A stretch of DNA of 22,648 bases, taken from IMG/VR virus record IMGVR_UViG_3300029908_000677, positions 1-22,648 of that record. One strand, 5' to 3'. The stretch's first letter is position 1; every line of letters begins with the position of its first letter. A model generated the notes under the pieces. It made no database searches. It was not told the DNA's origin and worked only from the letters and a program-made list of their open reading frames with translations. This document shows positions 2,478-22,398 of the stretch, in pieces. Origin of the DNA: a virus. Both the position numbers and the translations under genes were made by a program.

Positions 2478-3974
2478 TCATAAGTATTTTGATAGATTTT
2501 CTCGTACTTCTGCAAGAGTAAACTTCTTTGTGAGTTTACCATTAAGAAATACTGTTTTTAGTTCACAGTTGTTTGCTTCTTTCCAGGAAACCTGGTCAGC
2601 AAGATAAACATCATTTCCTGCAGCATGACGATATACAGCAAGAAGACCTTTAGCTGATTTCTTAGTTCCATCATCAGTAATGGGGTCTTTGAAGATTTCA
2701 CGTCCTTTTCCTTCTACTTCAACATAAGTTGATTTAATAGCACTACCTTGAGAGTCTCTTGACGCCATTCCTAACTGGAAAGATCCTACACCAAGAACTA
2801 TATTAGTTGAAGCAAATCCTTTAGCTTCTAGACGTTTACAAATCTCTTCAGCGCGATCGAGTGTGATTCCATCTCCGTAGATGCAACCAATATGAGAATC
2901 AAGAACTTTATACCCTTGTTCTGTCGTAGTACCTCCAAAAACATCCCAGAGTAATTCTATGACACCTTTAGCTTCATTTTTACTAACAAATGCTAATGGT
3001 CCATCCTGTGTTAGATACTTATCATCAACTTGTATAGTTAAAATTCCACAGATAATCTCCACTGGATCTCCACTATCAGGACGAATTACTAACTTACCAT
3101 CGCGAGCTAAGATTTGTTCTTTTAACTTTGGTAAATATTCAGTACAGACTTTCCAGAGATCGAAGGAATCCGAAACCATAGAAAGAATTCCTGTAGGAAA
3201 GATGCTCATAACTCGTTCAAAACAAGAAATTTCATCTTCTTTACCATATGCTGTTAAAACAGAATGTTCCGAAGCCGGCACACTAAATCCTGCGTTTTGT
3301 TCATCATAATAATACTCAGCAGCAAGAAGTGCTGGAACTGTATCCGTTCCCTTAAAAGAAGTCAAAAACCCAAGATCAGAACTTATTGCTGCTTCTGGTG
3401 ATTGCATACCACGATAGGCAAAATCATGACATTGAAAATCAACAAAAGCTAAAGCATCTGGATTTGTCTTTTTAGCATAACTTAAGAGAATTTTCTTAAA
3501 CCCAAAAGCTATAGCGGCGGAGTGCAGTGGTTTCCAGAGAAGACAACTAATAAGTGTTTCAAGAAAATTAGTTAACCAAAAGAATTCTGGTAATGTATTA
3601 TGAATAGTCATAATAGGAATCCTTACACCAACAATGCTACCTTCAGGAAGAGCTTTAACTTCTATGGGTAAATAACCTAAATCATGTAAAGCTTCAAAAT
3701 GAGATATATTATAATTTACCCCTAAATAAGAAGATAGAATTCTTTTAGCTTCACCACAAACTTCTTCTTTTGGTTTACTAAAGAACTCTTTATTATAAAG
3801 ATCATTGATATATATAATAGTATACTGTATACCAAATACTACAATCTCCTTGGCTTGATTTGGCATTCGAGATACAGATCGTGGAGTAAAATTAGAATAA
3901 ACTAATGTAGTACCTTTTGGATACATTAGATGATGGCCTGTTTTATAGCCATCAGTCATTAGAAGTGGATTCAT
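2478..3974 (-). CDS. nadV: nicotinamide phosphoribosyltransferase family protein (NAMPT/NadV or Namat-like)
   Basis: A 498-aa protein, close to the 460-500 aa of the family. NAMPT joins nicotinamide with PRPP to make NMN; the related phage Namat uses ADP-ribose pyrophosphate to make NAD+ directly. The N-terminus has the family pattern MTDGYKTGHHLMYPKGT, then CHDFAYRGM at about 182-190, the active-site histidine in VPASEHSVLTAYG (His237), the phosphoribosyl-binding RPDSGD at 298-303, and GDGI with LGVGSF further on. All key residues look intact. It is the last gene of a unit with the DnaA-like gene, PRPP synthetase and HAD phosphatase. Reading alone cannot tell Nampt from Namat, so the symbol is provisional. 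Confidence 0.9.
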   Translation of the reverse strand: MNPLLMTDGYKTGHHLMYPKGTTLVYSNFTPRSVSRMPNQAKEIVVFGIQYTIIYINDLYNKEFFSKPKEEVCGEAKRILSSYLGVNYNISHFEALHDLGYLPIEVKALPEGSIVGVRIPIMTIHNTLPEFFWLTNFLETLISCLLWKPLHSAAIAFGFKKILLSYAKKTNPDALAFVDFQCHDFAYRGMQSPEAAISSDLGFLTSFKGTDTVPALLAAEYYYDEQNAGFSVPASEHSVLTAYGKEDEISCFERVMSIFPTGILSMVSDSFDLWKVCTEYLPKLKEQILARDGKLVIRPDSGDPVEIICGILTIQVDDKYLTQDGPLAFVSKNEAKGVIELLWDVFGGTTTEQGYKVLDSHIGCIYGDGITLDRAEEICKRLEAKGFASTNIVLGVGSFQLGMASRDSQGSAIKSTYVEVEGKGREIFKDPITDDGTKKSAKGLLAVYRHAAGNDVYLADQVSWKEANNCELKTVFLNGKLTKKFTLAEVRENLSKYL

Positions 3975-3997
3975 ACATCAAAGTTTTGAGTGTGAGG

Positions 3998-4555
3998 TTA
4001 AAATTCTACTGTTTGTTCGGTTACTTGATTTTTTTCTGATTTTACTCGATAACAGCAATATTCAAGTATATTTAAAGATTCAACTAAAGCAGCTCTATCA
4101 TCTAATAAATGATTGTAGTAGATCTTCTTATGTAATCCAAAAGGTAAAGAAATTGGATTTTCATTAATAGAATCTACTATAATTCCTACAGATTTACAGT
4201 AAGCTTTAATCTCTTCAAAACGATCTTGATGACAAGCTGTCCAGATAGTAATATAAGCTCCTACTTCTCTGGCTAGTTTAACAATAGAAATAGTACGTTT
4301 AATATCTGATAAATTATTTAACGTTTTCCATGGAGAGATTGTCGAGTCGAAGTCAACAGCAAGGACTATCTTACCGTGAGTTTTCCATTCGTCTATCAAA
4401 CGTTCAGCGTAGATATTTCCTTTGTAATTACTATACTCTGGGATAGTAAAACACTCTGGGCAAGCCTCTCTTAATAGATGATCTTGTTCTCTTGCCCATT
4501 CATCATCTCTTTTCTTCTTTCCAGAAAGAAGGATTTTTGTAAATTTCTTTAGCAT
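3998..4555 (-). CDS. HAD-superfamily phosphatase-like protein
   Basis: A 185-aa protein with HAD motifs: IVLAVDFDSTISPW (DxDxT nucleophile, about residues 63-76), ITIWTAC (motif II Thr) at about 100-106, and YYNHLLDDRAAL (motif IV acidic pair) near 145-156. HAD enzymes remove or transfer phosphate. The N-terminal 60 residues are basic, with a CPECF segment. It lies between the PRPP-synthetase gene (one-base TAATG overlap) and the NAMPT gene (23-nt gap), so it may trim a phosphorylated nucleotide or ADP-ribose species in the same NAD pathway. That role is inferred from position. The start codon overlap supports the chosen start. Confidence 0.8.
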   Translation of the reverse strand: MLKKFTKILLSGKKKRDDEWAREQDHLLREACPECFTIPEYSNYKGNIYAERLIDEWKTHGKIVLAVDFDSTISPWKTLNNLSDIKRTISIVKLAREVGAYITIWTACHQDRFEEIKAYCKSVGIIVDSINENPISLPFGLHKKIYYNHLLDDRAALVESLNILEYCCYRVKSEKNQVTEQTVEF

Positions 4556-5427
4556 TAGAATACATTTAAAATGTGAACTCGATCAAACTCCTGAGTAAAC
4601 TCTTGAAAGGAATTTGTTGTATAAATTTGATCTATTTCTGTAGGAAACCCCTTGGAGAAAATGCCATGTGTGACTACAAGATGTATATTACCAGCACCCT
4701 TCTTCTTTGCTGCTTCTGCAAGTTTAATAAATGTATACCCACCATCACAAATATCATCTACTATAATACATTCGTCACCTTGAAAGTCTACATCCACAGG
4801 AATATCTGTAGAAGTAATCTTTCCAGTAAGTTTATCGCGATGTTTTGTACACTCTACAACATTACCTTTGAATGCAGATTCTTTTATAGTCTCATAAGCT
4901 TTATCAACAGCTCCTTTATCTGGAATAAGCCAAACTAGATCTCTACTACTTCCTTCATCTGGTGCTGACCGAGTTTTTAAAAGATGATCCAAAGCAAAAC
5001 TAACGAGCCGCTCATTAGAAATTACTTTGAAGTTATTCAACCCCATTTCAAGACAATGTGAATGTGGATCCATTGTAGAGATTGATTCCAGACCCAAACT
5101 GTTAAGAATAGGACAAATTACTTGTTTAAGGTAGTTTATTCCCATCTTCTGGAAAGATCTATCAGAACGCGCCCCTAAGAAATAAGGACAATAGAGATGA
5201 ATCTTCTTTATACCATGATTTCTAAGAGCAGCTACAGCAGAAATAATATACTGTAAATCTGTCCAAGACATTCTAGAAGATATCTGAATCGGCTCTTTTT
5301 CATCAAGAGTAAAACCAAATCTTTGATATTCTTCAGACAAATTCAAAAGAATCTGTGTATCAGTGAATTTAATCACTGAGTATTTTATATCACTCTTTTC
5401 GGGTGATACTAAGGAAAGTACGCGCAT
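4555..5427 (-). CDS. prs: ribose-phosphate pyrophosphokinase homologue (Prs / Adps-like)
   Basis: A 290-aa protein, slightly shorter than cellular Prs (about 315 aa). Prs makes PRPP from ribose-5-phosphate and ATP; phage Adps relatives pyrophosphorylate ADP-ribose instead. Visible are PYFLGARSDR at 81-90 (the ATP-loop region, equal to the PYARQDR of Prs), DPHSH at 120-124, the LIPDKGA pyrophosphate loop near 168-174, catalytic-region KHRDKLTGKI at about 195-204, and the PRPP loop VDDICDGGYT at 223-232. It lies 4 nt after the DnaA-like gene and is coupled to the HAD gene. Pairing with NAMPT strongly suggests supply of the phosphoribosyl or ADP-ribosyl donor. Substrate choice cannot be read from the sequence. 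Confidence 0.9.
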   Translation of the reverse strand: MRVLSLVSPEKSDIKYSVIKFTDTQILLNLSEEYQRFGFTLDEKEPIQISSRMSWTDLQYIISAVAALRNHGIKKIHLYCPYFLGARSDRSFQKMGINYLKQVICPILNSLGLESISTMDPHSHCLEMGLNNFKVISNERLVSFALDHLLKTRSAPDEGSSRDLVWLIPDKGAVDKAYETIKESAFKGNVVECTKHRDKLTGKITSTDIPVDVDFQGDECIIVDDICDGGYTFIKLAEAAKKKGAGNIHLVVTHGIFSKGFPTEIDQIYTTNSFQEFTQEFDRVHILNVF

Positions 5428-5431
5428 AATG

Positions 5432-5857
5432 TTATCTTTGAATAGTTTTTCGAATAAGATGTTTTAATTCATCATCATAAAAGAGAAGTCTCTGTCTCAC
5501 TAAAGAAAGTTCAGAAACTGTCATTTTTACGAGTTCAGTCTGTCCAGGAAAGATGGTTTTAAGTAGATGAACTCCTGAGTTAGGACATACGAAGTTACGA
5601 AACTCATCATAGGAATCATGAAAATCTTTATTATTTTCATAAAGATAATCTGCTCTACGAATAGCATTAATTACTGTAGTTCTATCTGTATTTAGAATAA
5701 TACCTATTTCAGTATCATCTTGATTCATTACTCTGGCTAACTTACAAATAAATTGTCTTATTTGTATTATGTGCCCATAACGAACCTTTTCTACTATTTC
5801 CTCTTGAGAATTCCCAAAGAAAATAGATGCTTTTTGAAGTATTTCTTGTGTGTTCAT
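5432..5857 (-). CDS. DnaA domain IV-like (Bac_DnaA_C) HTH protein
   Basis: A 141-aa protein whose first 75 residues resemble the DNA-binding domain IV of DnaA: an initial helix, RQFICKLARVMNQDDTEIG (like the ARxIAMYLxRELT segment) and ILNTDRTTVINAIRRA (like the DHTTVLHAxRK signature that reads the DnaA box). It lacks the AAA+ ATPase part. The rest is charged and helical without a known domain. Such stand-alone DnaA-C proteins occur in phages of Bacteroidota and could bind DnaA-box-like sites to influence replication or transcription. It is the first gene after the terminator at 5893-5918 and heads the NAD unit; no good promoter was found in front of it. Confidence 0.75.
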   Translation of the reverse strand: MNTQEILQKASIFFGNSQEEIVEKVRYGHIIQIRQFICKLARVMNQDDTEIGIILNTDRTTVINAIRRADYLYENNKDFHDSYDEFRNFVCPNSGVHLLKTIFPGQTELVKMTVSELSLVRQRLLFYDDELKHLIRKTIQR

Positions 5858-10252: not shown

Positions 10253-11761
10253 TTAAAACAAAGCTCGTCCATCCACTTTAAATTCAAACTTAGAATCTAA
10301 GCGTATATCGTGCTCACTTATGTAGTCTTCCTTAGCTTTATCTGCTGCAAAACGTTTACATTGTGATTCATAAAACTCACACAGATAACGTGTTAAGAAG
10401 ATTGCATCCTCATTTCCTGGAAAGGCTGACTGATAATAAGAGAAAACATCTAAGATAGATATCTTCTTTTTAGCAGTGAGAATAGCTTCTGCATTGTGTT
10501 CTGCATATTTAATAAAGCTATTAACAAAATACAACCACATCGTATATTTGTATGCAGAAAGCGAAGGGGTAAAGAGACGAAACTCTACTGTTTTACTCGG
10601 ATGAAAAATTGTGTTAATAAGATTAAGTCCGAAATATCTTGAGTCCCTACTCCATTTGTCCCTTATGGGATGCTGCAAATGTCCACGATTTGTATCTTCA
10701 GAGGGGGGCGTTCCACAAGAGAGAAATGTAAAGAGTTTTACATAAACCTCATCAATATAACTTTCATAACCCTCCTTAGAACAGTCTACCAGAGGATGTA
10801 TAGACATCTTCTTTAGCTTGTGGCAGTAGTTCTTTTTCTTTAAACCACGACAATCTGTTTTATAATAAGGAAACATTTTGAATAGTTCATCTTGTATCTT
10901 ATAGAATAATACATAATATACTACAAGACTCTTACGATCAACTGGAACATTTCCTACATGAATATGAACTGAACAAGACATATCTATGGTAACACGTTTT
11001 TGAAGTTCTTGAGCAAGATTTACTAAAGTTTGAACTCCTTTCGCACCAGACATTGGTACTAGACAAATTTCTGGTCCATGAATTGAGCCATCCCTACAGA
11101 TAACAGTACCACATTTATTTTGTGTTGGCTCATCCAGGTTACCCTGATCTGCTTCAATCTCAAATCCATATGTAATGTCTCCAAGAAACCTAGCATATCT
11201 CCTTACTTCTTTTGTAATCTCAGTAGGAAACTCTTTATAAGCTAGTTTCTTTTGTTCATACTCAACTTTGTTGTCCTCAATATTATAGCCTTTACGATGA
11301 TGATCTACCTCATTTCTGATAGAAATCATCTTTTGATACTGCTGATCAGTAACTTTAGTTCGCGGGTACCACTTACAGAAGCCAATATCTTCAAAATATC
11401 CGTGCTTCTTTAAGAAGTCACTATTCTGAGCTTTTACTGTATTTCCATCGTACCAGCAATCTACATTCTTATAAGGATTTGCAGAAAAGTGCCCCATTAC
11501 AGGAGAACCTGAAGAAGTAATATCAATTATACCGTTGAAGAGTTTAACTTCACTTTTTAATACCCAAGCTTTTACCTCATGATCAAACTCAATTTTACCT
11601 GAATCCTTCCGATACCACTTGTTATTTACTAAAAAAGCGTCTTCCTCTTTTAAGTAATACTTTTCTTGAATGAACGTACAGTTCCTTCTGTATTCTTTTT
11701 TTCCTTTTACTGTTGTTATGACTTTAAGCGGAAGGCTCTGGTCATTTTTATAAAGAATCAC
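10253..11761 (-). CDS. amidoligase (PF12224-type COOH-NH2 ligase)
   Basis: A 502-aa protein. The amidoligase fold, a relative of glutamine synthetase and GCS, uses ATP to join a carboxylate and an amine. Family signatures in order are ITYGFEIEAD at 196-205 (metal/ATP GxExE), CRDGSIHGPE at 222-231, SVHIHVG at 264-270 and TVEFRLF at 391-397. The first 190 residues are a phage-specific extension. The ATG overlaps the class II GATase stop by 4 nt, so both are co-expressed. In phage clusters described by Iyer, Aravind and colleagues such ligases occur with ATP-grasp and GATase genes and are predicted to make peptide-like products or modify cell-wall peptides. The substrate is unknown. Confidence 0.85.
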   Translation of the reverse strand: MILYKNDQSLPLKVITTVKGKKEYRRNCTFIQEKYYLKEEDAFLVNNKWYRKDSGKIEFDHEVKAWVLKSEVKLFNGIIDITSSGSPVMGHFSANPYKNVDCWYDGNTVKAQNSDFLKKHGYFEDIGFCKWYPRTKVTDQQYQKMISIRNEVDHHRKGYNIEDNKVEYEQKKLAYKEFPTEITKEVRRYARFLGDITYGFEIEADQGNLDEPTQNKCGTVICRDGSIHGPEICLVPMSGAKGVQTLVNLAQELQKRVTIDMSCSVHIHVGNVPVDRKSLVVYYVLFYKIQDELFKMFPYYKTDCRGLKKKNYCHKLKKMSIHPLVDCSKEGYESYIDEVYVKLFTFLSCGTPPSEDTNRGHLQHPIRDKWSRDSRYFGLNLINTIFHPSKTVEFRLFTPSLSAYKYTMWLYFVNSFIKYAEHNAEAILTAKKKISILDVFSYYQSAFPGNEDAIFLTRYLCEFYESQCKRFAADKAKEDYISEHDIRLDSKFEFKVDGRALF

Positions 11762-14085
11762 TCAGCGTTAGTTTGATTTACTTTTTTAAAATTAGAGTCA
11801 TCGTGATGATCTGCGGCGAGTTTTTCAATGTCTTTTTTAGTTACTCTGATATTTCTACGCATTGCTTGTGTTATTTGTTGAGCGTATGGAGTTTTAATTA
11901 GTTCCATTTCATCTGTAATGGTTGCGGTTTCTTCTATGTTATTAAGAAGTTCTTCTACTTTATCACAAGCTTCGGAATGAGCTTCAATTTGATTAGATTC
12001 GTGTTGAGCAAGAACTTCGTCTATGGCTTCTTGAGCAAGCTTTCCAGAAGAAGGATTATTAAACTTTTGGTAAGCATCATAAAGAGCTTCATAATCATTA
12101 AACTCTTCTTCCTCCTTCATATCTGATTCAGCAGTTACACAAGCAAATCTAGATTTTGCTGCTGCTTTAGTGTTAAAGTTATCCTTCACAAACTCCCAAG
12201 GTGGTAATTTAGCTTCTGACGAAGCTATTTCACAATAACCATAAGCTTCAAACATTATCTCATCATCAGTTAAAGTCTCTGATTCTTCTTTTGGTTTAGT
12301 CAATACTTTAAGATAACCTTCTAAAGCATTATCATTATCGTTAAGAATCTCACGAATAGTCTTTTGCTTAGGAAGTTCGTTCTTAATTAAACACCAAACC
12401 TCAGATTGAACTTGTTTTATGTCTGGAGAAATAATCATTTCTGCTTTCATCTCATCAAACATAAAAGCTTCTATCGCTGCAACTTCATTATCCTCAAGAG
12501 TATTCATCATTTCAGATAAATCTTTAAAGATTATATCAAAACAATTATCCTCTTTCTGGAAAGAATCACTATCTGCTATTCTCTGTAAGAAACCATTCTT
12601 TATAATATAGGTCTTTCCAGAAAACAGGGGAGTAATGTTCGCTACTAAAGCGCGAGCATCATCTTTATACCAAGAGAATCTGAAATAATCATCTTCATCA
12701 ATACATTCAGTAAGAAGATTACAAACAGGATCTTTAGAGTAACGACTCATATAACAAGCATAATTACTCTCAGGTGAAAGTAACCAACTATTAGGTAAAG
12801 CCGCCTCTCTGGAAAGACTACGATAAGAAGGTTCATCTTTTAACATTACACCTCTCCAAAACCAATAACAAGTACTATTATCAGTTTGTTCTGAATGAAC
12901 AATTCCGCGATCTGCAATCCATTGTTGGCCATGAATAAAATCACCAGTACTTAGGTAATAACGGCCTTTATGAAAAAAAGTATAAATCTTTCCAGATTGA
13001 GCAAGTGTCATCTTAGGCGCCGGCTCTTCCCAACAAATATTAGTCTTTGGAACCTCTAATCCAGTAGCTTTAGAAGCAATTCTCTTTCGAGATTCCTCTA
13101 TAACATTTCTACCAATATTATTTAAAGCTGAAGAAAAGCTTGAACGTTCTGAAGTACGTTGCTGAGAAGGATAACCAATCTCTCCTTGCTGGTAATAATC
13201 TGAACTATATACTTTATTGAGATTAGCTTCCTCGCGATTAATAGTAACAAAGTCTTTAGAGAATTTACCATTAGTAATTTTTAGAACAGCATTCATCTTA
13301 AGCCATTCTGGTTTCTCTTTATCAGATTCGCGAATAGCATTAAGATAACGTGCCTCTGAAGCAAAGTAACAACCTTCTTCAGTATGCATATAATAAAGTG
13401 GCCGCTCCTCTGTTAAAGTTTTATCCCATTTACTCTTAAGAGAAGCTCCATGATAAACCCATAAAGTATTAGGTTGAGAAGGCTTAGTCCAGATAAGAGC
13501 TGCATCTCCTTGATATTCTTCAAGAACTTTGGTGCCGCCTCTAACTAAAAGATGTCCTAATGCAAGAGAGTCAGAGTTAATATGAAGATCTACATGATCT
13601 ATTTCATATTGTTTGCAGAGAGTCCAGTGGTTGGAAAGGGTCCCATTATGAATTAGAATAATATCATCCTTCTCTGTTTCTCCTTTAATGTGAAAAGGAT
13701 GAGTATTAGCATCTATTTTAGCTACACCATAAGACGCTGCTCTAACATGACCTAACATAATATTAGTCTTTGTAATATCAAGTTGTGGCCAAGTAAACTC
13801 TTCTTGCATTAGAAAGTCATCAAATTCAGTAGTGTCTTTTGAGCCAATCTTATCACCTTTAATGATATTTCCGTTTACAAAAATACCACATGCATCCTTA
13901 CCTCTACTTGGAAACATAAGTGTACCAAGTAATTTAAGTTTTTGAGTGGCAATGCGAGCCTGTTCTTTAGAAACACCTTTAATCAAACTTACAGCGAACA
14001 CTCCACAAAGAGCAAATCCACCTCTCTTCTGGAAAGTAAGATTTAAAATTAATTGAATTAACAGATAATAAGTAAGTACTGTCAT
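11758..14085 (-). CDS. class II glutamine amidotransferase with long C-terminal extension
   Basis: A 775-aa protein. Residues 27-250 are an Ntn-type glutaminase domain: CGVFAVSL with nucleophile Cys27, RGKDACGIF at 61-69, GHVRAASYG at 112-120, NTHPFHI, IHNGTLSNH at about 145-153 and NSDSLALG. It would release ammonia from glutamine or cleave a gamma-glutamyl bond. The remaining ~500 residues match no known synthase domain (no PP-loop or SIS motifs) and end in acidic helical stretches. Oddly, 26 residues, many hydrophobic, precede the Cys, which normally must be N-terminal; they would have to be removed. It is coupled to the amidoligase gene by ATGA. It contains five TTTCCAGA octamers. Confidence 0.85.
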   Translation of the reverse strand: MTVLTYYLLIQLILNLTFQKRGGFALCGVFAVSLIKGVSKEQARIATQKLKLLGTLMFPSRGKDACGIFVNGNIIKGDKIGSKDTTEFDDFLMQEEFTWPQLDITKTNIMLGHVRAASYGVAKIDANTHPFHIKGETEKDDIILIHNGTLSNHWTLCKQYEIDHVDLHINSDSLALGHLLVRGGTKVLEEYQGDAALIWTKPSQPNTLWVYHGASLKSKWDKTLTEERPLYYMHTEEGCYFASEARYLNAIRESDKEKPEWLKMNAVLKITNGKFSKDFVTINREEANLNKVYSSDYYQQGEIGYPSQQRTSERSSFSSALNNIGRNVIEESRKRIASKATGLEVPKTNICWEEPAPKMTLAQSGKIYTFFHKGRYYLSTGDFIHGQQWIADRGIVHSEQTDNSTCYWFWRGVMLKDEPSYRSLSREAALPNSWLLSPESNYACYMSRYSKDPVCNLLTECIDEDDYFRFSWYKDDARALVANITPLFSGKTYIIKNGFLQRIADSDSFQKEDNCFDIIFKDLSEMMNTLEDNEVAAIEAFMFDEMKAEMIISPDIKQVQSEVWCLIKNELPKQKTIREILNDNDNALEGYLKVLTKPKEESETLTDDEIMFEAYGYCEIASSEAKLPPWEFVKDNFNTKAAAKSRFACVTAESDMKEEEEFNDYEALYDAYQKFNNPSSGKLAQEAIDEVLAQHESNQIEAHSEACDKVEELLNNIEETATITDEMELIKTPYAQQITQAMRRNIRVTKKDIEKLAADHHDDSNFKKVNQTNAE

Positions 14086-14104
14086 AGTTTATGTTTGTTA
14101 AAAA

Positions 14105-14202
14105 TAAATAGGGGTTGCTCTATACTATTAACGAAATAGTGATTCCGCAATGATCAATATAGGTGTCTTACAATTAGACGAATAAAGCACTCTCCCTATT
14201 TA
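14105..14202 (-). ncRNA. structured element E2 (98 nt) before the class II GATase gene
   Basis: A perfect 9-bp closing stem (14105-14113 TAAATAGGG with 14194-14202 CCCTATTTA) surrounds, on the minus strand, a GTCT/AGAC hairpin and a CTATA/TATAG stem that itself encloses TGAT/ATCA and CTATT/AATAG hairpins. It ends 19 nt before the GATase ATG, so it lies in that gene's leader. No canonical tRNA or known riboswitch was recognised. It could control the GATase or be a target site for the neighbouring endonuclease. Confidence 0.4.
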
Positions 14203-14236
14203 CTTTGTTAAATAATATTAAACTGTTTTGCTTTAT

Positions 14237-14339
14237 AATAACAGACAGTGTTGGCGTGATACCTTTTCGGTCTATAGACGGAAGTAATTACTATTCCCTA
14301 TTGCTTACTAATCAGTTGGCACTATTTCTATCTGTTATT
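14237..14339 (-). ncRNA. structured element E3 (103 nt) at the 3' end of the GIY-YIG gene
   Basis: A 12-bp closing stem joins 14237-14248 and 14328-14339. One position is a U-G wobble only if read as minus-strand RNA (it is C-A on the plus strand), suggesting the minus transcript is the functional one. It overlaps the last codons of the endonuclease gene. Inside are a GTC/GAC hairpin and a GGAA/TTCC hairpin. No known RNA family was recognised. Confidence 0.38.
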
Positions 14340-15168
14340 CTTGTTTTAATTTTTCACGATAAAAGTAAAACTGTTTAGGTTTTTTAAAAGGTTTACTTAG
14401 ACCTTGTCTAACTGTTGGATATTTTTTATTACATTCTGAAACACTTTCAAACTCCTCTATAAAGTTATGATCTTTATCATAAACATAAACAGAAACTCGT
14501 CTCAGTTGTTGAATAGCAGACAAATTAGATGGTGTTTTTCCTTTTAATAAGGCACTATGTTTTTCTCTAGCCTCAATAGACTGAGCTTTACCTAGTTTCT
14601 TTTCTCGCATTTTTGCACGAGTTTCATCAGATACTCTTGGTTTATTATTAGCAAGAAAGAGACGTTGTTCAAGATTTTCTTGATTAACATCTTCTTTATA
14701 AAGCCAGACAAATCCCATATAGTATCTATATTCTCCTCGACAACACCCTGATATTCCTCCACCAGCACATCCAATTTCTTCTGCAGCTATAGTACAATTT
14801 TTATGTATTTTAACTAGATCACCATTAAATGAATACTGATAAACATTTCTTACTTCAGGATTACATTCTTTAGGAAAACCTGAAGAAGTAGACATATTGT
14901 AACCTATTTTATTATCATAAGTCTGATATTTATCTAGATATAATTGTTCTACTTTCCTCATGTCTTCTTCAGAAGATAATTTTTGTAAGATAACAAATAC
15001 GAAATTATCTTTTCCGTGTTTATTATAGCTTAGTTGTAAATGCTCAGAGTGGTGCTTATTACGTTTAAGTTCACTAAGATGTTTTTGCTTTCTTCGAGCA
15101 AAATTGCTAGTACTTCCGATGTATTTCTTACCGTTTACTAGATTGATTATAGCATAAATGCATTTCAT
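14335..15168 (-). CDS. GIY-YIG homing endonuclease with NUMOD domains
   Basis: A 277-aa protein. The GIY-YIG nuclease domain is at residues 3-90 (CIYAIINLVNGKKYIGSTSNF, RRKQKH, a catalytic-Glu region RKVEQLYLDKY). The rest holds DNA-binding modules typical of phage homing enzymes: a NUMOD1-like VYQYSFNGDLVKIHKN, NUMOD3-like repeats SDETRAKMREKKLGK and SIEAREKHSALLKGK, and a second NUMOD1-like VYVYDKDHNFIEEF near the end. It lies between the ATP-grasp and class II GATase genes with its own promoter and is free-standing: no group I core was found around it. It has no TTTCCAGA octamer, fitting recent arrival. Confidence 0.9.
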   Translation of the reverse strand: MKCIYAIINLVNGKKYIGSTSNFARRKQKHLSELKRNKHHSEHLQLSYNKHGKDNFVFVILQKLSSEEDMRKVEQLYLDKYQTYDNKIGYNMSTSSGFPKECNPEVRNVYQYSFNGDLVKIHKNCTIAAEEIGCAGGGISGCCRGEYRYYMGFVWLYKEDVNQENLEQRLFLANNKPRVSDETRAKMREKKLGKAQSIEAREKHSALLKGKTPSNLSAIQQLRRVSVYVYDKDHNFIEEFESVSECNKKYPTVRQGLSKPFKKPKQFYFYREKLKQE

Positions 15169-15187
15169 AGTTGTATATCCTTATACA

Positions 15188-15219
15188 AGAATATACGCTA
15201 TTTATTTCAATCTACCAAA
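15188..15219 (-). promoter_or_regulatory. promoter of the GIY-YIG endonuclease gene
   Basis: On the minus strand TTTG (15219-15216), exactly 20 nt, then TATATTCT (15195-15188). The ATG lies about 19 nt further. It starts right after the ATP-grasp stop codon and shares TTTGGTA and CGTATATT with the LAGLIDADG-gene promoter. Confidence 0.65.
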
Positions 15220-15220
15220 T

Positions 15221-16105
15221 TTATTTTAGAAGTCCGTGTTTTTGTGCTATTTTTGTTGCAAGTTTTGGGATCATATCTATATATTTTTGTAATACGATAG
15301 GAGCCATCCCCGAAGCAGAATTTGTTTCTATAACACACCAGTCACAACTTTTACGTGTATTGCCTTTTTCGTCAGTTGCTCCTTGACAACGTAAATCTAC
15401 GGATCCTACATCTAATCCTACAGCAACAATTGCTTTTGTACAATCATCAACTATCTCCTGCCAATTCACTGGTTTCTCAAACTGTGGATTCTCTTCCAAG
15501 ATCCATACTGAATTTGAGTCGTTTTTAAACCATTGTTTGTCTTTAGGAGTATCTTTCTTAAGCATCTTTCTACAAGTATAGAAGCAGCCGTCCTCTGTTA
15601 TATGAAGACGATATTCTTTAGAGTAGTTATAGAATCTTTCGAAGATGTAGTTAGAAGGAGTGTGCCTTTCCAGAAAAGAGGTGAGTTGTGCTGCTGTATC
15701 GAGTTTGTAGTTACCCTGGCAGCGGCTCCCGTAATGACTCTTAGCAATAATCGGATAAGGAAGTTTATTAATATCTACTTCCTTAGGGGTGTCAAGTTGT
15801 TGAAAGAACTTTCCTCCTTGATATAAATACCAATCTGCTGTTTTTACTTTAGCTTTTTGAAAACATTGCTTCATTAAGAGCTTAGAAGCACTATTTCGTA
15901 CACCTTGAACTGAGTTGATTTCTACTCGTCGACCTCCTTTCTGGATAGAATCTTGAATACTGGTCTGACTGCCCATATGTAGACAAGATCTAAAAGGAAG
16001 TAAAGGCAACAACGTTCTTAGAGGACGATGAGTATTGTGGCGAGAATATACTGCAGTCCTAAATCGTGTTAGAGATTTCTTTACTGGAACTAATTTGTTT
16101 TTCAT
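15221..16105 (-). CDS. ATP-grasp carboxylate-amine ligase
   Basis: A 294-aa protein with ATP-grasp features: VEINSVQGVRNSASKLLMK at about 61-79, PIIAKSHYGSRCQGN at 118-132 (Lys and flexible loop contacting phosphates), FERFYNYSKEYRLHI at 155-169, VGLDVGSVDL, and metal-binding VIETNSASGM at 258-267. This family activates a carboxylate as acyl-phosphate and attacks it with an amine. The first 60 residues are basic and Arg-rich. It follows the split class I GATase by 3 nt, in one operon. With the two amidoligases it gives this cluster three separate ATP-dependent bond-forming enzymes. It resembles RimK-like phage proteins; the substrate is unknown. Confidence 0.85.
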   Translation of the reverse strand: MKNKLVPVKKSLTRFRTAVYSRHNTHRPLRTLLPLLPFRSCLHMGSQTSIQDSIQKGGRRVEINSVQGVRNSASKLLMKQCFQKAKVKTADWYLYQGGKFFQQLDTPKEVDINKLPYPIIAKSHYGSRCQGNYKLDTAAQLTSFLERHTPSNYIFERFYNYSKEYRLHITEDGCFYTCRKMLKKDTPKDKQWFKNDSNSVWILEENPQFEKPVNWQEIVDDCTKAIVAVGLDVGSVDLRCQGATDEKGNTRKSCDWCVIETNSASGMAPIVLQKYIDMIPKLATKIAQKHGLLK

Positions 16106-16108
16106 AGG

Positions 16109-16521
16109 TTAAAGTTTTGAATTTTCCTCAGCAGAAATAGTACGAACTTCTTCGGTATCAAGTTCTCCTGCCATAAACCTGTCTAATAGATTACGACCAT
16201 ATTTTACTACATCACTCGTATTAGACATTGCCTCCATATGATATTGTGACCCTAGAAATTTGATTTTGGGAAAATAACATAATTCAGGTTCTACTGGAGG
16301 ATTCATTTCTTGCATATCACCATCTTCATGATGTTCAGATAAATTCTCTGCCCAAGCTATAAGTTGATAATCCTCTTTTGGTAAATCAAAAGGATAGATC
16401 GCCTGATGATGCATGCTATTTACTTGTAATATATCACCTTCTTTTGTAACTATTGGATGCATCCAAGGATGAGACAAGTCTTGAATTAACGTACCTCCTG
16501 CTAGAACACATGCCCATTGTA
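16109..16521 (-). CDS. class I glutamine amidotransferase A, exon 2
   Basis: This is the C-terminal part of a gene cut by the 16522-16752 intron. After splicing the reading frame continues GTCKGL-QWACVLAGGTLIQDL, the normal GxCxGLQ...GGTLxQDL pattern of C26-type class I GATases. The catalytic His-x-Glu pair is visible in GSQYHMEA. A conceptual open frame within this exon could begin at a TTG at 16477, but it would lack the beta-strand with the GG turn, so it is not the true start. Exons of 250 and 413 nt sum to 663 nt, an exact 221 codons including the stop. The gene ends 3 nt before the ATP-grasp ATG. Confidence 0.85.
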
Positions 16522-16752
16522 CATTTTGTTATCCTAAAGGCTTTTTATCCCTTAGTTCTTATAGTTTCCTATAAGTTCAGCATATATTTTCAATCTAATG
16601 ATTGTTGAGCACTCTTGGAAGAATTATATTTATTCATCTTCTATGCGTTACACTGATTATCAACCTTTTCGTAATTTGATAATTTAGCACGGTATTAGCA
16701 GTTAAGCCTTCACCGTTTTTGCTCAATTTTAAAAGGGCTACATTTTAAATTA
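16522..16752 (-). ncRNA. group I intron A (231 nt, no ORF)
   Basis: On the minus strand the upstream exon end AAAGGGU (16759-16753) pairs with GCCCUUU (16738-16732), a 7-bp P1 with the U-G pair at the splice site. P3 is UUGAGC (16726-16721) with GCUCAA (16610-16605). P8 is CAAUC/GAUUG (16604-16591). Two P9-type hairpins follow (CUUAUAG-GAAA-CUAUAAG and CUAAGGG/CCUUUAG). The intron ends in G16522. P7 is less clear. The 3' end (CTAAGGGATAAA...GATAACAA) resembles intron B, so the two are related. There is no endonuclease inside. Confidence 0.82.
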
Positions 16753-17002
16753 ACCCTTTACATGTTCCCCAGATACGTTTATCTAGAGATATTGCTTTTT
16801 TGAGTGCATTATACTCATGATCACCACGAGAATAACCCCAAGTTGCTGGATGTCCTTTCTTCGCGTAGTGCTGATATGGAACATCACTACCACCTTCAGC
16901 AACTACTAGATCGGCTTCTTCCATAGTATCTACTATTTCGCCTTCCATCCAGTTTGCATATCCTGTACTGCCATTAATGCAGTATATTTTTCTTTTGCTC
17001 AA
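16753..17002 (-). CDS. class I glutamine amidotransferase A, exon 1
   Basis: This is the N-terminal 83 codons plus one base of a 220-aa GATase. It begins KRKIYCINGSTGYANW, then ADLVVAEGGSDV (the strand and turn before the GATase elbow), and ends at the nucleophile elbow GTCKG with Cys81. The intron interrupts right after it. The only available start is TTG at 17002, directly preceded by a TAA in frame and lying inside the last codons of the LAGLIDADG gene; no Shine-Dalgarno is seen. Insertion of that gene seems to have replaced the original start region. The enzyme would hydrolyse glutamine or a gamma-glutamyl amide for the amidoligase cluster. Confidence 0.8.
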
Positions 17003-17789
17003 TTAGTTGTTTTATTTGTTGTGCTTTTTCAAACTTTCGTTTACAATATAAAGTACAATCATTAGGATAAATTAGATTAATTAATTTAATAGTTGCTTTA
17101 ACGCTTAATTGCATTCGATAATGTGTATGGACATTATCGTGTGGTTTAGTAATAGACAAGCAACCTTGTATATTATTTTTATTCAAGTATACAATGTATT
17201 TGTCTATTAACTTTTTAGATGAACTAGAAAAAACACAAGATACTTTATTCCTAGAAATTCCAAAATGACCATCCCCTTCAATTAACCCACGTACAAATTC
17301 ATTTGTAAATGTTATGTTCGGATCAATCGTTAAAGATTTATTTTCTGTAATTCCTAAACTTTTGAGAAAATCAAATGTTTCTTTATGCCCAAATCGAATT
17401 GTTAATCTAGTATCCCAATTTTTGTCTTTATTCTTATAATACATTATTTTGGACTCTTCTATGCCTAAAAACTTACAATAGTTTTGAGCGACATCTAAAT
17501 CTTTTAATGTAGTAGTAATATTTATTCTCTTATCGTGTAAGTTTCCATCAGTTACAATCCAACCTAGCCAATACTGAACTTCAGGATTAGCTAGATCTTC
17601 AAACGGATTATAATTAACAGTTTTTATGGAGAAGGGTTTATAATTGCAATTACTTTTCTTTATCCAAAGACGAGCAATTCCCTCTGTTGTATTTAGTCTT
17701 TTAGCAATTTGAACTCTACCTAAACCTTCTTTTTGAAGATTTTGTATTTGTTCTCTCAGTTCTTGACTGATGTCATAATACTCTGGCAT
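16974..17789 (-). CDS. LAGLIDADG homing endonuclease (free-standing)
   Basis: A 271-aa protein. An N-terminal helix-turn-helix (QIAKRLNTTEGIARLWIKK, about residues 27-45) precedes two LAGLIDADG-type motifs, YWLGWIVTDGNLHD near 73-86 and FVRGLIEGDGHFG near 165-177, each with the acidic residue needed for metal binding. It is a monomeric two-motif enzyme that would cut a long asymmetric site. It lies between the COOH-NH2 ligase gene and GATase A, overlapping the GATase start by 29 nt. No intron core surrounds it. Its own promoter is nearly identical to that of the antisense endonuclease in intron B. It may mobilise the ORF-less intron A nearby. Confidence 0.9.
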   Translation of the reverse strand: MPEYYDISQELREQIQNLQKEGLGRVQIAKRLNTTEGIARLWIKKSNCNYKPFSIKTVNYNPFEDLANPEVQYWLGWIVTDGNLHDKRINITTTLKDLDVAQNYCKFLGIEESKIMYYKNKDKNWDTRLTIRFGHKETFDFLKSLGITENKSLTIDPNITFTNEFVRGLIEGDGHFGISRNKVSCVFSSSSKKLIDKYIVYLNKNNIQGCLSITKPHDNVHTHYRMQLSVKATIKLINLIYPNDCTLYCKRKFEKAQQIKQLIEQKKNILH

Positions 17790-17810
17790 TTCTTTAGTGT
17801 TGGTACACTA

Positions 17811-17842
17811 AAAATATACGACAATTTATTGACATTACCAAA
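17811..17842 (-). promoter_or_regulatory. promoter of the LAGLIDADG gene
   Basis: On the minus strand TTTG (17842-17839), 20 nt, TATATTTT (17818-17811). Including the next two bases, 30 of 34 positions equal the plus-strand promoter at 21236-21269. The ATG of the gene follows 21 nt after the -7 box. A GGAGGA lies just upstream, after the ligase stop codon. Confidence 0.75.
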
Positions 17843-17855
17843 TAAATCCTCCAGG

Positions 17856-18668
17856 TTAAACCAACTCTATTCCAAAATCCTTACAGATCATCTCTGCAAG
17901 TGCTTTATCTTCTTGGTTAATTGTTTGTTGAATTAATTCACCCATATCATAGATCCTTTCTACTTCACGAGAGTTAACGTATGCTATTGCTCTTTCTGAA
18001 CCTCTAAAACACCATTCTATTAGGTTCTTTCCAGAAGAAAAGTGACTTGATAAGCTGCGATATTCTACACCTGGTTTTGTATTTCTGTAGTTACCAGCAC
18101 AACCATAACCAACTTTCTTACGTTCATTAGTTGGCTCGATAAGAATACTTGGCACACCTAAGAATAAATCAAGAGCACGAATTAGATCACGATTTGTTTC
18201 AGGCGTTGGTGAGTTATATCCATAATGCCAGTGCATTCCTGCACTACGAAGGTTATCTCCTGTTGGATGAGGAATAACTTCTTCATCATGATAACAACAA
18301 AGTGAAGGCTCACAACCGAAAATCTGTGCGGTTTCACTCTGTAACTGATCTTCCTCTAGTCGTGCGGCTGGAATAGCGAGAGTAGTAAGACCACTTGGAA
18401 GCGTAGAGTTAATATAGTTACGAAGTTTCTCCAAAGAAAGAAACATTTCTAATGGAGATTGCACTACGTTGGTGTTCACTTCCGCAAGCACACAATCCAG
18501 AGAGGTTGCGTGATATTTGTTTTCTGGATCAAAGTGATAAGGATCCTTTTTTGTTCCTTTTACAAGATTTTCTGCAGTTAGAATTTTACCAGTAGTTGTA
18601 TCTTGTACAAACCACTCGCAATCTCCGCCCCACGTCCAATCCTGTATTAATTGCTTTTTTACTTCCAT
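17856..18668 (-). CDS. phiEco32-like COOH-NH2 ligase type 2
   Basis: A 270-aa protein fitting the phage COOH-NH2 ligase-type 2 family (PF14395). Signatures are WGGDCEWFVQD at 13-23 (GxDxE metal site), LAEVNTNVVQSP at 61-72, AGMHWHYGYN at 143-152 (paired His) and PGVEYRSLS at 199-207. The family belongs to the glutamine-synthetase/GCS superfamily and is predicted to form an amide or peptide bond with ATP. Its ATG directly follows the stop of the 380-aa gene (TAAATG). It is the second amidoligase in the cluster, of a different family from the PF12224-type enzyme at 10253-11761, so two different bonds may be made. Confidence 0.87.
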   Translation of the reverse strand: MEVKKQLIQDWTWGGDCEWFVQDTTTGKILTAENLVKGTKKDPYHFDPENKYHATSLDCVLAEVNTNVVQSPLEMFLSLEKLRNYINSTLPSGLTTLAIPAARLEEDQLQSETAQIFGCEPSLCCYHDEEVIPHPTGDNLRSAGMHWHYGYNSPTPETNRDLIRALDLFLGVPSILIEPTNERKKVGYGCAGNYRNTKPGVEYRSLSSHFSSGKNLIEWCFRGSERAIAYVNSREVERIYDMGELIQQTINQEDKALAEMICKDFGIELV

Positions 18669-20076: not shown

Positions 20077-20786
20077 TTAATTTCAATATTATTAGTTTTT
20101 CGGTGAAAGTCATGAATAGATTTAAAACAATCTCTATGAAACCATTGTCTATTCATGTATTTAGCTGCCATAATAGGTTCGCAAGTACATTTATAAAAAG
20201 TATTGTTAGTTAAAAGCTTATTAATATCAATCTTAGGAGAACCTATTATAATAAAACCTATACTATCTTTTTGTGAATTAATCATAGATAATATATATTC
20301 TATAAAGGGATGCCAAAGATCTAAATGTTCGTGTTCTTTCCCTATTAAAGTAGTAAGACTACAGTTTAAAAGAAGAATGCCTTGATTTGCCCATGATTTA
20401 AGATCATAGCCTGCTAATGATTGTTCATAATTCCAATGTGGTACTGGCGTATAATGTCCAGCATAAACTGTTTCGTCTAGAACTTGATGAACCGTCTCTA
20501 ACTGAACGGGAGCTAGTTCTGAGTTTCTTGCAGAAAAAGCCAATCCATCAGCTACTCTAATTCCGTCTTTTGTAAGTTGAGAATAGGGGCCCAAATTAAG
20601 AATTACTGTATGTAATCTTTCCCAAGGACATTCTAAGAAACAGCGATAGATTTGAGATAACTCTGGAGTCACCTTCTTCTGGATAGGAATTAAGGCTTCT
20701 CCAATAATTTTATATTCCTCTGACTCAAGAAAAGGGCCGAGCACTTTTGCCCAGCCCTCTCCAAAGTATTTTTTGTAGAAACTCAT
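20070..20786 (-). CDS. uracil-DNA glycosylase (family 1)-fold protein with degenerate active site
   Basis: A 238-aa protein that follows Ung along its whole length: WAKVLGPFL at the start, HTVILNLGPYSQ at 59-70, DGLAFSAR at 80-87, SWANQGILLLN at 131-141, and a C-terminal FHRDCFKSIHDFHRK like the FxxxHFxxxNxxL of Ung. The catalytic GQDPYH is replaced by NLGPYS, so the water-activating Asp is Gly66, and HPSPLS is replaced by CEPIMA, losing the catalytic His. Asn141, the uracil-contact residue, remains. The protein is probably not a glycosylase; it may bind DNA or a partner, as poxvirus D4 does in a processivity complex. It is coupled to GATase B by ATGA. Confidence 0.8.
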   Translation of the reverse strand: MSFYKKYFGEGWAKVLGPFLESEEYKIIGEALIPIQKKVTPELSQIYRCFLECPWERLHTVILNLGPYSQLTKDGIRVADGLAFSARNSELAPVQLETVHQVLDETVYAGHYTPVPHWNYEQSLAGYDLKSWANQGILLLNCSLTTLIGKEHEHLDLWHPFIEYILSMINSQKDSIGFIIIGSPKIDINKLLTNNTFYKCTCEPIMAAKYMNRQWFHRDCFKSIHDFHRKTNNIEIKW

Positions 20787-21152
20787 AAACCAAGAAGTTC
20801 TGTAATTAGTTGATCAGAATACTCATCATAAAGCTCCTCCGGATGCCATTGTATACCAATAATTGGTAATATGTTATGCCGAAAAGCTTCAACAATTCGT
20901 CCATCATGATCATCATAATAAGCAAGTGTTGTTAAATGCTCATTACTAGGATCGTGAATAATTCCCTGATGATGATGAGAGTTTACACGCATTAATTTTG
21001 CAAGATCTTCTTTTTCATTTTTATCCTTGCGAATAACAACTTCATGTCCTACAATTTGAATAGGATGGCCGGTTTCCCAGCGATCGCGAGATTGTGGATG
21101 CCACTTGAAATTTTGCTTAAGTTTATACCCAAACATTACTGCTAATTGTTGA
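20783..21152 (-). CDS. class I glutamine amidotransferase B, exon 2
   Basis: This is the C-terminal part of the GATase cut by intron B. From the splice site the frame reads QQLAVMFGYKLKQN, then RVNSHHHQGI (the NSxHxQ segment typical of PuuD-like C26 GATases), and the catalytic GIQWHPEELYDE with His and Glu. The stretch of open frame upstream of 21152 (NNCQQ preceded by 11 codons) is intron. Exon lengths 302 and 370 nt sum to 672, exactly 224 codons including the stop. The stop overlaps the UDG-like ATG. Confidence 0.85.
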
Positions 21153-21235
21153 CAATTGTTATCTCTAAGGCTCTTTATCCTTAGATTCACATACTTTCAT
21201 ATGTGTTCAGACTATATCATATTCTTTATAAAATA

Positions 21236-21267
21236 TTTGTTAATGTCAGAAAATTGTTGTATATTTT
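21236..21267 (+). promoter_or_regulatory. promoter of the intron B endonuclease gene
   Basis: TTTG (21236-21239), 20 nt, TATATTTT (21260-21267), with ATG only 3 nt later at 21271, suggesting a leaderless message. It matches the LAGLIDADG-gene promoter at 30 of 34 positions although the two proteins are unrelated. Confidence 0.75.
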
Positions 21268-21270
21268 TAT

Positions 21271-21996
21271 ATGGCAACAAACTCCGAACTTTTTCTTGAA
21301 TTGTATTATCAAGGACTTAGTAACACCAAAATTAGCGAAATTCTTAAGATAAACAGAAAATCTGTTGATAAATTAAGAAATGATTTAGGACTTCCTAGAC
21401 GAACCTCTAGTATCAAATATGGCCCACAAATAACTGAATTAGTTAATAAGGGATTAAATGATGGAGAAATTAGTCGAGAATTAGGTATTAATCACAAGCA
21501 AGTAGAATACATTAGAAATAGGCGACTAAAATTAAAAACTAACAATGTAATTAAAAAATACTTTGATAATCTTACGCTTTTAAAAAGTCTAATGTTACGC
21601 AATTTAAGACATTCCGCTAAAGCTAGAAATCTTGAATTTAATCTTACAATTGATGATTTAAATCTACCAACTCATTGTCCTATTTTAGGAATTAAATTAT
21701 CATATGGAAAAGATCCAAATACACAAGTTGGAGCTTCAGTAGATAGAATAGACAATACAAAAGGATATGTTAAAGGAAATATCGTGATAATGTCTAGAAA
21801 AGCTAATGCTATGAAAAATAGTGCTAGTATTGATGAACTTCAAACTTTTATTAATAATATTCAAAAATTAATTACTTTTTATAAAGATCAAGGCGCTCTT
21901 GGAAGTATTACTGACGTGTTTTCTGAAATAAAATTTATTACAGAAGATTTAGTCTCGACTTCTAGTCGTTGCACTTATAAAAGCGTTTCCGCTTAA
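21271..21996 (+). CDS. intron-encoded homing endonuclease with DRIDNxKGY motif (HNH-like)
   Basis: A 241-aa protein and the only clear plus-strand gene. Residues 1-90 hold two helix-turn-helix repeats (TKISEILKINRKSVDKLRNDLGL and EISRELGINHKQVEYIRNRRL). Residues 105-200 are the nuclease region: HSAKARNLEFNLTIDDL, CPILGIKLSYG, then ASVDRIDNTKGYVKGN and VIMSRKANAMKN. This pattern is common in phage HNH-like endonucleases; the exact family is uncertain because no classical HNH triad stands out. It is antisense to the GATase gene inside intron B. Its last 15 or so codons overlap the intron's P7 5' strand and core. It has no TTTCCAGA octamer. Confidence 0.82.
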   Translation: MATNSELFLELYYQGLSNTKISEILKINRKSVDKLRNDLGLPRRTSSIKYGPQITELVNKGLNDGEISRELGINHKQVEYIRNRRLKLKTNNVIKKYFDNLTLLKSLMLRNLRHSAKARNLEFNLTIDDLNLPTHCPILGIKLSYGKDPNTQVGASVDRIDNTKGYVKGNIVIMSRKANAMKNSASIDELQTFINNIQKLITFYKDQGALGSITDVFSEIKFITEDLVSTSSRCTYKSVSA

Positions 21997-22096
21997 ATTT
22001 AGCTCATGATTGGCATAGATTTCTCTTTAGCGTTCCATGAATTCACCTCGTTTTTAACTACAGATCACTCTATAGTGGGTCCCAACATTTTAGTTT

Positions 22097-22398
22097 AACC
22101 CGGCACATATACCAAAAATCGGTATACGTCTGTCTACATAAGACAGAAGACGCTTATCAAAGAAGAACTGCTTGAAAACATCCGTATTAGAAGTTTTAAA
22201 ACCAGGAATCTCTCCGTAGGAAGAAGGATTTACGTCAAGACCTCCAGGAAGATATAAAGCGTCTATATCTACGTTCTCTTCTTCAGGAAGTATTATTCGT
22301 GGAATTCCATATTGAGATATGAATTCTAGGTGCGTTACCCCAACGCCGATAGAAGTATCAGTTTTATATGCTGGGCAACCAATACGTAATTTTGGCAT
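22097..22398 (-). CDS. class I glutamine amidotransferase B, exon 1
   Basis: This is the N-terminal 100 codons plus two bases of a 223-aa GATase of the peptidase C26 / PuuD type. It begins MPKLRIGCPAYKTD, has IDALYLPGGLDVNPSSYGE (the PGGxDVxPxxYGE signature) at about 45-63, and ends at the nucleophile elbow FGICAG with Cys98. The open frame runs two codons into the intron before a stop. PuuD-like enzymes hydrolyse gamma-glutamyl amide bonds, so this gene may cut or turn over a gamma-glutamylated product of the cluster rather than feed ammonia. It begins 32 nt after the small gene to its right. Confidence 0.85.

Follow-up and report, generated by a model that had tools for sequence, protein, structure and literature searches.

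Known NAD+ reconstitution systems

NARP1 has been described as a two-enzyme pathway, formed by Adps and Namat. Lan et al. (PMC12774641) described in Namat a selectivity clamp, a GSX.X.X.TRD motif (the SCH) with aromatic residues at positions 3 and 7 (F392 and Y396), to which the clamp loop adds the stacking residue R40. Joint loss of R40 and F392 abolishes protection and reduces the use of ADPR-PP most, single changes in the clamp have modest effects, and Namat still turns PRPP into NMN at about half the rate of human Nampt (PMC12774641). An accessory enzyme is also on record: the glycosidase RyDEP acts on cyclic ADPR signals and can supply ADP-ribose to Adps (PMC13232231). A phosphatase in a NARP1 context is mentioned in neither PMC12774641 nor PMC13232231, the papers to which this survey extends, the NARP1 discovery paper (Nature 2024) lying outside it; in the accessible part of PMC9503650, HADs come up solely in connection with RNA repair and ARGs. 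What is new here is a recurrent HAD gene beside the same two enzymes.

Organization of the Prs-HAD-NAMPT locus

The window, that is, the whole stretch of DNA analysed, is the 22,648-base IMG/VR virus record IMGVR_UViG_3300029908_000677, a fragment from a virus of bacteria. Three genes are arranged on the minus strand between 5427 and 2478 in the order Prs-like, HAD, and NAMPT-like (Table 1). Their family matches are far beyond chance, and the NAMPT-like protein additionally matches NF006629 (548 bits) and phrog_448 (7e-182). The stop codon of the Prs-like gene overlaps the start of the HAD gene as TAATG, and the HAD and NAMPT-like genes are separated by 23 nt, which gives the locus the appearance of a translationally coupled operon. 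The operon of three ORFs proposed in the preliminary description was confirmed, with the positions and family memberships given there. A gap of 4 nt separates the Prs-like gene from a helix-turn-helix gene upstream of it, which may be co-transcribed with the operon, either as its first gene or as a regulator. In two relatives (L002 and L004), the NadD encoded beside NAMPT carries a fused DnaA_C domain, and comparison of the window HTH domain with the DnaA_C domain of these fusions did not establish direct homology. No tRNA was found in the window. On the evidence presented below, we consider it fairly probable that the locus reconstitutes NAD+ as a NARP1-type operon that includes a dedicated third gene.

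Table 1. Genes of the putative operon and its upstream neighbour in the window
Gene	Coordinates	Strand	Length	Assignment	Family match
DnaA domain-IV-like HTH	5857-5432	minus		Stand-alone HTH protein	PF08299, 6.1e-8
Prs-like (Adps-like)	5427-4555	minus	290 aa	Predicted ADP-ribose pyrophosphokinase	phrog_619, 2.4e-55
HAD	4555-3998	minus	185 aa	Capless HAD-superfamily phosphatase, BT_0820-type	phrog_1238, 2.2e-22
NAMPT-like (Namat-like)	3974-2478	minus	498 aa	Predicted nicotinamide ADP-ribose transferase	PF04095, 6.7e-42

The Prs-like enzyme

Scored against TIGR01251, the Prs-like protein gave 96.4 and 96.2 bits and did not reach the canonical Prs cut-off of 113, whereas ten canonical Prs proteins of the hosts (Bacteroidota) scored 347-367 bits. 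Phylogenetic analysis placed it with the Adps-type proteins of phages SPbetaL1 and ICP1, a Felixounavirus, and mycobacteriophage Bromden, in a separate clade of 136 that holds all four of these reference phage proteins, with the canonical Prs apart. A loop with the sequence DTGGT or DTAGT in canonical Prs is DGGYT in the window and DGGxT in most relatives. Judged by its sequence, the protein is a predicted Adps homologue distinct from canonical Prs. The low score and the position outside the canonical clade also argue against an ordinary nicotinamide salvage route, which we regard as unlikely. In such a route, the Prs-like enzyme would make PRPP, the NAMPT-like enzyme would form NMN, a phage or host NadD-type adenylyltransferase would complete NAD+, and the HAD would be a general nucleotide or sugar phosphatase.

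The NAMPT-like enzyme

The catalytic residues of the NAMPT-like protein, including the NAM/ribose pocket and H237, are intact. Its top sequence match in the PDB is SPbetaL1 Namat (9W5W/9W5X, 476 bits), followed by H. ducreyi NadV (423 bits) and human and mouse NAMPT (about 260 [264] bits). The AlphaFold model (pLDDT 90.7) superimposes on SPbetaL1 Namat with a Z score of 46.2, an rmsd of 1.5 and 49% identity, and on human NAMPT with a Z score of 41.5, an rmsd of 2.0 and 36% identity. The window protein is closer to Namat than to Nampt.

Analysis of the clamp region revealed the motif GSFQLGMASRD at 397-407, together with R36 in the clamp loop, which aligns with R40 of Namat. The equivalents of Namat S391, F392, R399, D400, and R40 are kept, and the departures are Met for Y396, Leu for Y394, and Ser for T398. 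Read against the SCH signature, position 3 matches with its Phe, position 7 is a non-aromatic Met, and the Thr is replaced by Ser. In canonical Nampts, position 391 is Gly, position 392 is Gly in most cases, and position 396 is charged or polar. The partly eroded clamp speaks for the salvage route, and the retention of F392 and R40 speaks against it. As a putative Namat in which only one of the two adenine-stacking aromatics survives, the window protein is a test of the proposed clamp rule. Among 141 relatives, 13 share the Met at SCH position 7, a residue that is commoner there in HAD-linked loci (12/57 versus 1/84); a connection between the HAD and clamp loss was rejected, and the association is not counted as evidence because most of the HAD-linked loci with Met are closely related.

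A tree built from 146 non-redundant loci and two references unites all Prs-linked NAMPT proteins in one clade of 141 (support 0.90), which a long stem separates from human NAMPT and the phage Nampts. This clade contains the proteins of the window, SPbetaL1, the Felixounavirus, ICP1, and Bromden, and every Namat included falls there; within it, the reference Namats all lie outside the half that holds the window protein, with a support of only 0.21 at the separating node. H. ducreyi NadV, which is encoded on plasmid pNAD1 and is described as NMN-bound in its PDB title, also lies inside the clade, so clade membership by itself is no proof of ADPR-PP use. Its position counts in favour of the salvage route. 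This NadV, however, has Gln and Arg at the two clamp aromatics and has no Prs gene beside it, which distinguishes it from the window protein. Placement among canonical Prs and NadV, which the preliminary description had named as counter-evidence, was sought in both trees, and neither enzyme shows a clear placement of that kind.

Adenylyltransferases and a possible NMN route

The salvage route depends on an adenylyltransferase acting on NMN. No PF01467 adenylyltransferase was detected in the complete phages that carry all three genes (DAC15, VPT02, PhAER-3, cr111, cr126, and Phass-1), or in the NARP1 phages SPbetaL1, ICP1, and a Felixounavirus; a phage with a canonical Nampt (V05) has one. The window, itself a 22.6-kb genome fragment, contains neither an NTase motif nor an NMN adenylyltransferase. 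The absence from six complete phages and from the window weighs against salvage. On the other side, the DnaA_C-NadD fusions of L002 and L004 follow directly after the NAMPT gene (TIGR00482, 99.9 bits in L002), and the NAMPT proteins of both relatives are near that of the window (64% identity in each case). In the phage of a third relative, L080, whose RecA (76%) and a number of flanking genes are shared with the window, a weaker NadD-like gene lies away from the locus. The presence of NadD-like genes in close relatives makes a route from PRPP through NMN to NAD+ possible in this lineage, and the residual activity of Namat on PRPP (PMC12774641) is compatible with it.

The same residual activity, the mixed clamp, and the NadD-like genes of some relatives are also what would be expected of a dual-use module, in which both enzymes would run ADPR-PP to NAD+ as well as PRPP to NMN, with the NadD of some relatives capturing the NMN. 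We rate this as less likely still than plain salvage. It requires a Prs-like enzyme able to use ADPR as well as R5P, and the window contig, though a fragment, has no NadD. The NARP1-type pair suggested in the preliminary description is thus upheld in part: both enzymes place with phage Adps and Namat proteins, but the clamp is kept only partly, a NadV shares the clade, and NadD occurs in relatives.

Sequence and fold of the HAD phosphatase

The catalytic residues of the HAD protein (D68/D70/T72, T106, K144, and D152/D153) are intact, and 73 non-redundant relatives preserve the HAD motifs as well as N131, Y146, N148, and R154. N131, Y146, N148, and R52 are predicted to contact the substrate. 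With dN/dS values mostly between 0.01 and 0.27 among relatives, the family is under purifying selection. The structural model (pLDDT 86.8) has its closest fold in BT_0820 (2OBB, Z 10.7), and the protein scored 20.2 bits against the NCBIfam BT0820 equivalog NF046079, which does not reach the cut-off of 165. The second Foldseek match is phage AfhF (9IQW), titled D-arabinose 1,5-diphosphate phosphatase, and this match suggests a pentose-phosphate substrate class. From the combined analysis, the HAD is most likely a pentose- or ADP-ribose-phosphate phosphatase, the exact substrate being a guess.

Two other assignments were considered and set aside. An RNA-repair HAD would be represented by T4 Pnkp, which matches with a Z score of only 6.8, below the 10.7 of 2OBB and in a range prone to unreliable matches. 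The name phosphoheptose isomerase, attached to phrog_1238 and several records, is a carried-over label and was rejected because the protein has HAD motifs and a HAD fold.

Linkage of the HAD gene to Prs and NAMPT genes

Scans of IMG/VR with the window Prs-like or HAD protein as the lone query returned no relatives. The NAMPT-like protein has 67 relatives there; a Prs gene is present in the fetched stretch of 63 of these, and 12 also have a HAD gene next to the pair. An alignment of NAMPT-linked HADs was then used to search IMG/VR, with NAMPT ignored as a criterion, and gave 80 loci, 58 of them non-redundant. A NAMPT gene lies within 6 kb in 47 of the 58 and a NAMPT or Prs gene in 50, always on the same strand, counts that carry an ascertainment bias because the search alignment was built from linked HADs. 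At 40 non-redundant loci, the HAD gene is within 400 nt of Prs or NAMPT. When the loci were binned by the identity of their HAD to the window protein, linkage was found in 28 of 30 loci at 45% or more, 17 of 19 at 38-45%, and 5 of 9 below 38%.

When the window HAD alone was compared with named phages, the full trio was found in cr126, cr111, DAC15, Phass-1, PhAER-3, and VPT02, which include isolated phages (DAC15, VPT02, and PhAER-3) and crAss-like phages. Lak-B5 and Lak-C1 have only Prs and HAD within 6 kb, and the uncultured phage LR756501 has a HAD match with neither Prs nor NAMPT nearby. Bacteroidota contigs carry the trio as well (L171, L182, L183, L200, L219, L223, and L234). Both gene orders were found among the HAD-linked loci, and at none of the loci is the HAD fused to Prs or NAMPT.

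These observations bear on the possibility that the HAD adjoins the pair by coincidence, as a widespread phage phosphatase of RNA ends or sugars located in early-gene clusters, with no relation to NAD+ synthesis. In favour of this, the 3'-phosphatase of T4 Pnkp is among the weaker fold matches, and some members lie away from NARP1, such as SPO1 gp30.2 and 8 of the 58 viral loci. The linkage in 50 of 58 loci, on a single strand, in phages and Bacteroidota, in both orders and within 400 nt at 40 loci, together with the trio in six distinct isolated or complete phages retrieved with the window HAD only, makes such a coincidence very improbable, and the window shows no recognisable RNA ligase or kinase as a partner.

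The HAD is absent from most NARP1-type loci, and the gene is therefore not essential in general. Mapped onto the 98 tips of the reference-bearing part of the NAMPT tree, the HAD label switches about 20 times, against a shuffled mean of 28, indicating that the HAD has been gained or lost repeatedly. The window Prs-like and HAD proteins are closest to those of L080 (50% and 53%), whereas its NAMPT is closest to that of L047 (68%, versus 40% for L080). A slot that is kept while its parts are swapped fits the expectation for a functional module. Taking linkage, conservation, and fold together, the HAD is apparently a dedicated third NARP1 gene, and the suggestion in the preliminary description of an extra HAD that could process phosphorylated ADP-ribose or NMN-type intermediates gains strength, as the gene is a recurrent neighbour and not a one-off.

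Proposed mechanism

The gene set probably rebuilds NAD+ after bacterial defences have destroyed it. By homology, the Prs-like enzyme (Adps) would transfer pyrophosphate from ATP to ADP-ribose, yielding ADPR-PP, the ADP-ribose presumably arising from NAD+ cleaved by a host NADase. The NAMPT-like enzyme (Namat), again by homology, would join ADPR-PP with nicotinamide to give NAD+ directly. From its linkage and fold, we infer that the HAD most likely makes phosphorylated ADP-ribose or pentose available again. Phosphorylated ADPR would arise from the decay of ADPR-PP and from NADP+ cleavage. Candidate substrates of the HAD would be ADPR-1''-phosphate from decayed ADPR-PP and phospho-ADPR from cleaved NADP+. 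We tentatively propose, at somewhat below even chance, a three-enzyme NARP1 variant, Adps-HAD-Namat, in which the capless phosphatase would convert phosphorylated ADP-ribose to ADP-ribose. If so, phages with these three genes would have more kinds of breakdown product to draw on for NAD+ recovery. A third gene shared by unrelated phages and bacterial genomes points to a missing step, possibly the repair of a dead-end intermediate or the exploitation of another product of NAD(P)+ breakdown. Since isolated phages with the trio exist, such as DAC15 on B. thetaiotaomicron, the question of the HAD is directly testable.

Comparison with known systems

The HAD resembles the BT_0820-family HAD (2OBB) and phage AfhF (9IQW) in its small capless fold and in the DxDxT, K, and DD(R/K) motifs, but it shares only about 20% and 15% identity with them and has different partners. 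NadV of H. ducreyi pNAD1 (PDB 9KE8) is 45% identical to the NAMPT-like protein and belongs to the same tree clade; unlike the window protein, it has no Prs neighbour, carries Gln/Arg instead of aromatics in the clamp, and is titled as an NMN complex. Vibriophage ICP1 encodes a homologous pair, NrsA/NrsB (33% and 47% identical; PMC11559045), without a HAD gene. The operon is similar to the NARP1 (Adps and Namat) of Bacillus phage SPbetaL1 (PMC12774641), in which a Prs-like gene is likewise followed by a NAMPT-like gene. The NAMPT-like protein is 48-49% identical to SPbetaL1 Namat, with the same pocket, the GSX...RD signature, and the clamp Arg/Phe; it differs in having Met for Tyr396, Leu for Tyr394, and Ser for Thr398, and in SPbetaL1 the Adps and Namat genes have no HAD gene between them. 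Insertion of an extra enzyme gene into the operon has a parallel in the NARP1 of mycobacteriophage DyoEdafos, which contains RyDEP (PMC13232231), whereas the insert in the window is an unrelated HAD phosphatase. The arrangement that marks NARP1, adjacent Prs-like and NAMPT-like genes, is present in the window with one HAD gene between its two members.

NAMPT relatives and variant loci

The 80 best bacterial NAMPT matches listed (L160–L239) come nearly all from Bacteroidota, with identities of 51–56%; an Adps-like gene lies near many of them, and HAD is also present at some. The NadV of H. ducreyi pNAD1 (L288) was placed within the Namat clade of the NAMPT tree, and it has no accompanying Prs gene and, at SCH-motif positions 3 and 7, lacks the aromatic residues of the clamp. 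This NadV is a possible case of reversion from Namat to Nampt.

Within the compared locus L043, the SCH motif of the NAMPT ORF (773 aa) is interrupted between GSF and TYQHVTRD by an insertion that resembles an intein; this point lies in the adenine-binding site. The HAD of the NARP1-type locus L154 is fused to a C-terminal domain that by eye resembles a nucleoside deoxyribosyltransferase. In Phass-1 (L279), a gene annotated as nicotinamidase is followed by Prs, NAMPT, and HAD genes.

Coordinates of features in the window and compared loci
Locus	Coordinates	Feature	Position
Window	5432-5857	DnaA_C-like HTH gene	4 nt upstream of Prs-like gene
L002	9520-10587	DnaA domain-IV HTH fused to NadD-type nicotinate/nicotinamide mononucleotide adenylyltransferase	immediately 3' of NAMPT
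L004	9565-10629	as in L002	immediately 3' of NAMPT
Window	10253-18668	Amidoligase, class II glutamine amidotransferase, ATP-grasp-like protein, phiEco32-like COOH-NH2 ligase cluster	
Window	16109-17789; 20783-22398	Two apparently split class I glutamine amidotransferase genes	
L043	4993-7314	NAMPT with insertion	
L154	5947-6846	HAD with fused domain	
L279	863-5301	Gene annotated as nicotinamidase, then Prs, NAMPT, HAD	

Accompanying genes and comparison with other phages

The DnaA_C-like protein of the window stands alone at the head of the operon and is possibly its regulator, whereas in L002 and L004, which encode near relatives of the window NAMPT, a DnaA domain-IV HTH is joined to a NadD-type enzyme. 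By eye, two class I glutamine amidotransferase genes of the window each appear to be in two halves, and a LAGLIDADG-like or HNH-like ORF lies between these parts or overlaps them; the arrangement suggests introns or the insertion of homing endonucleases. A gene set resembling the amidoligase/ligase cluster is found in Leptolyngbya phage Lbo-JY46 (L070), where it adjoins Prs/NAMPT.
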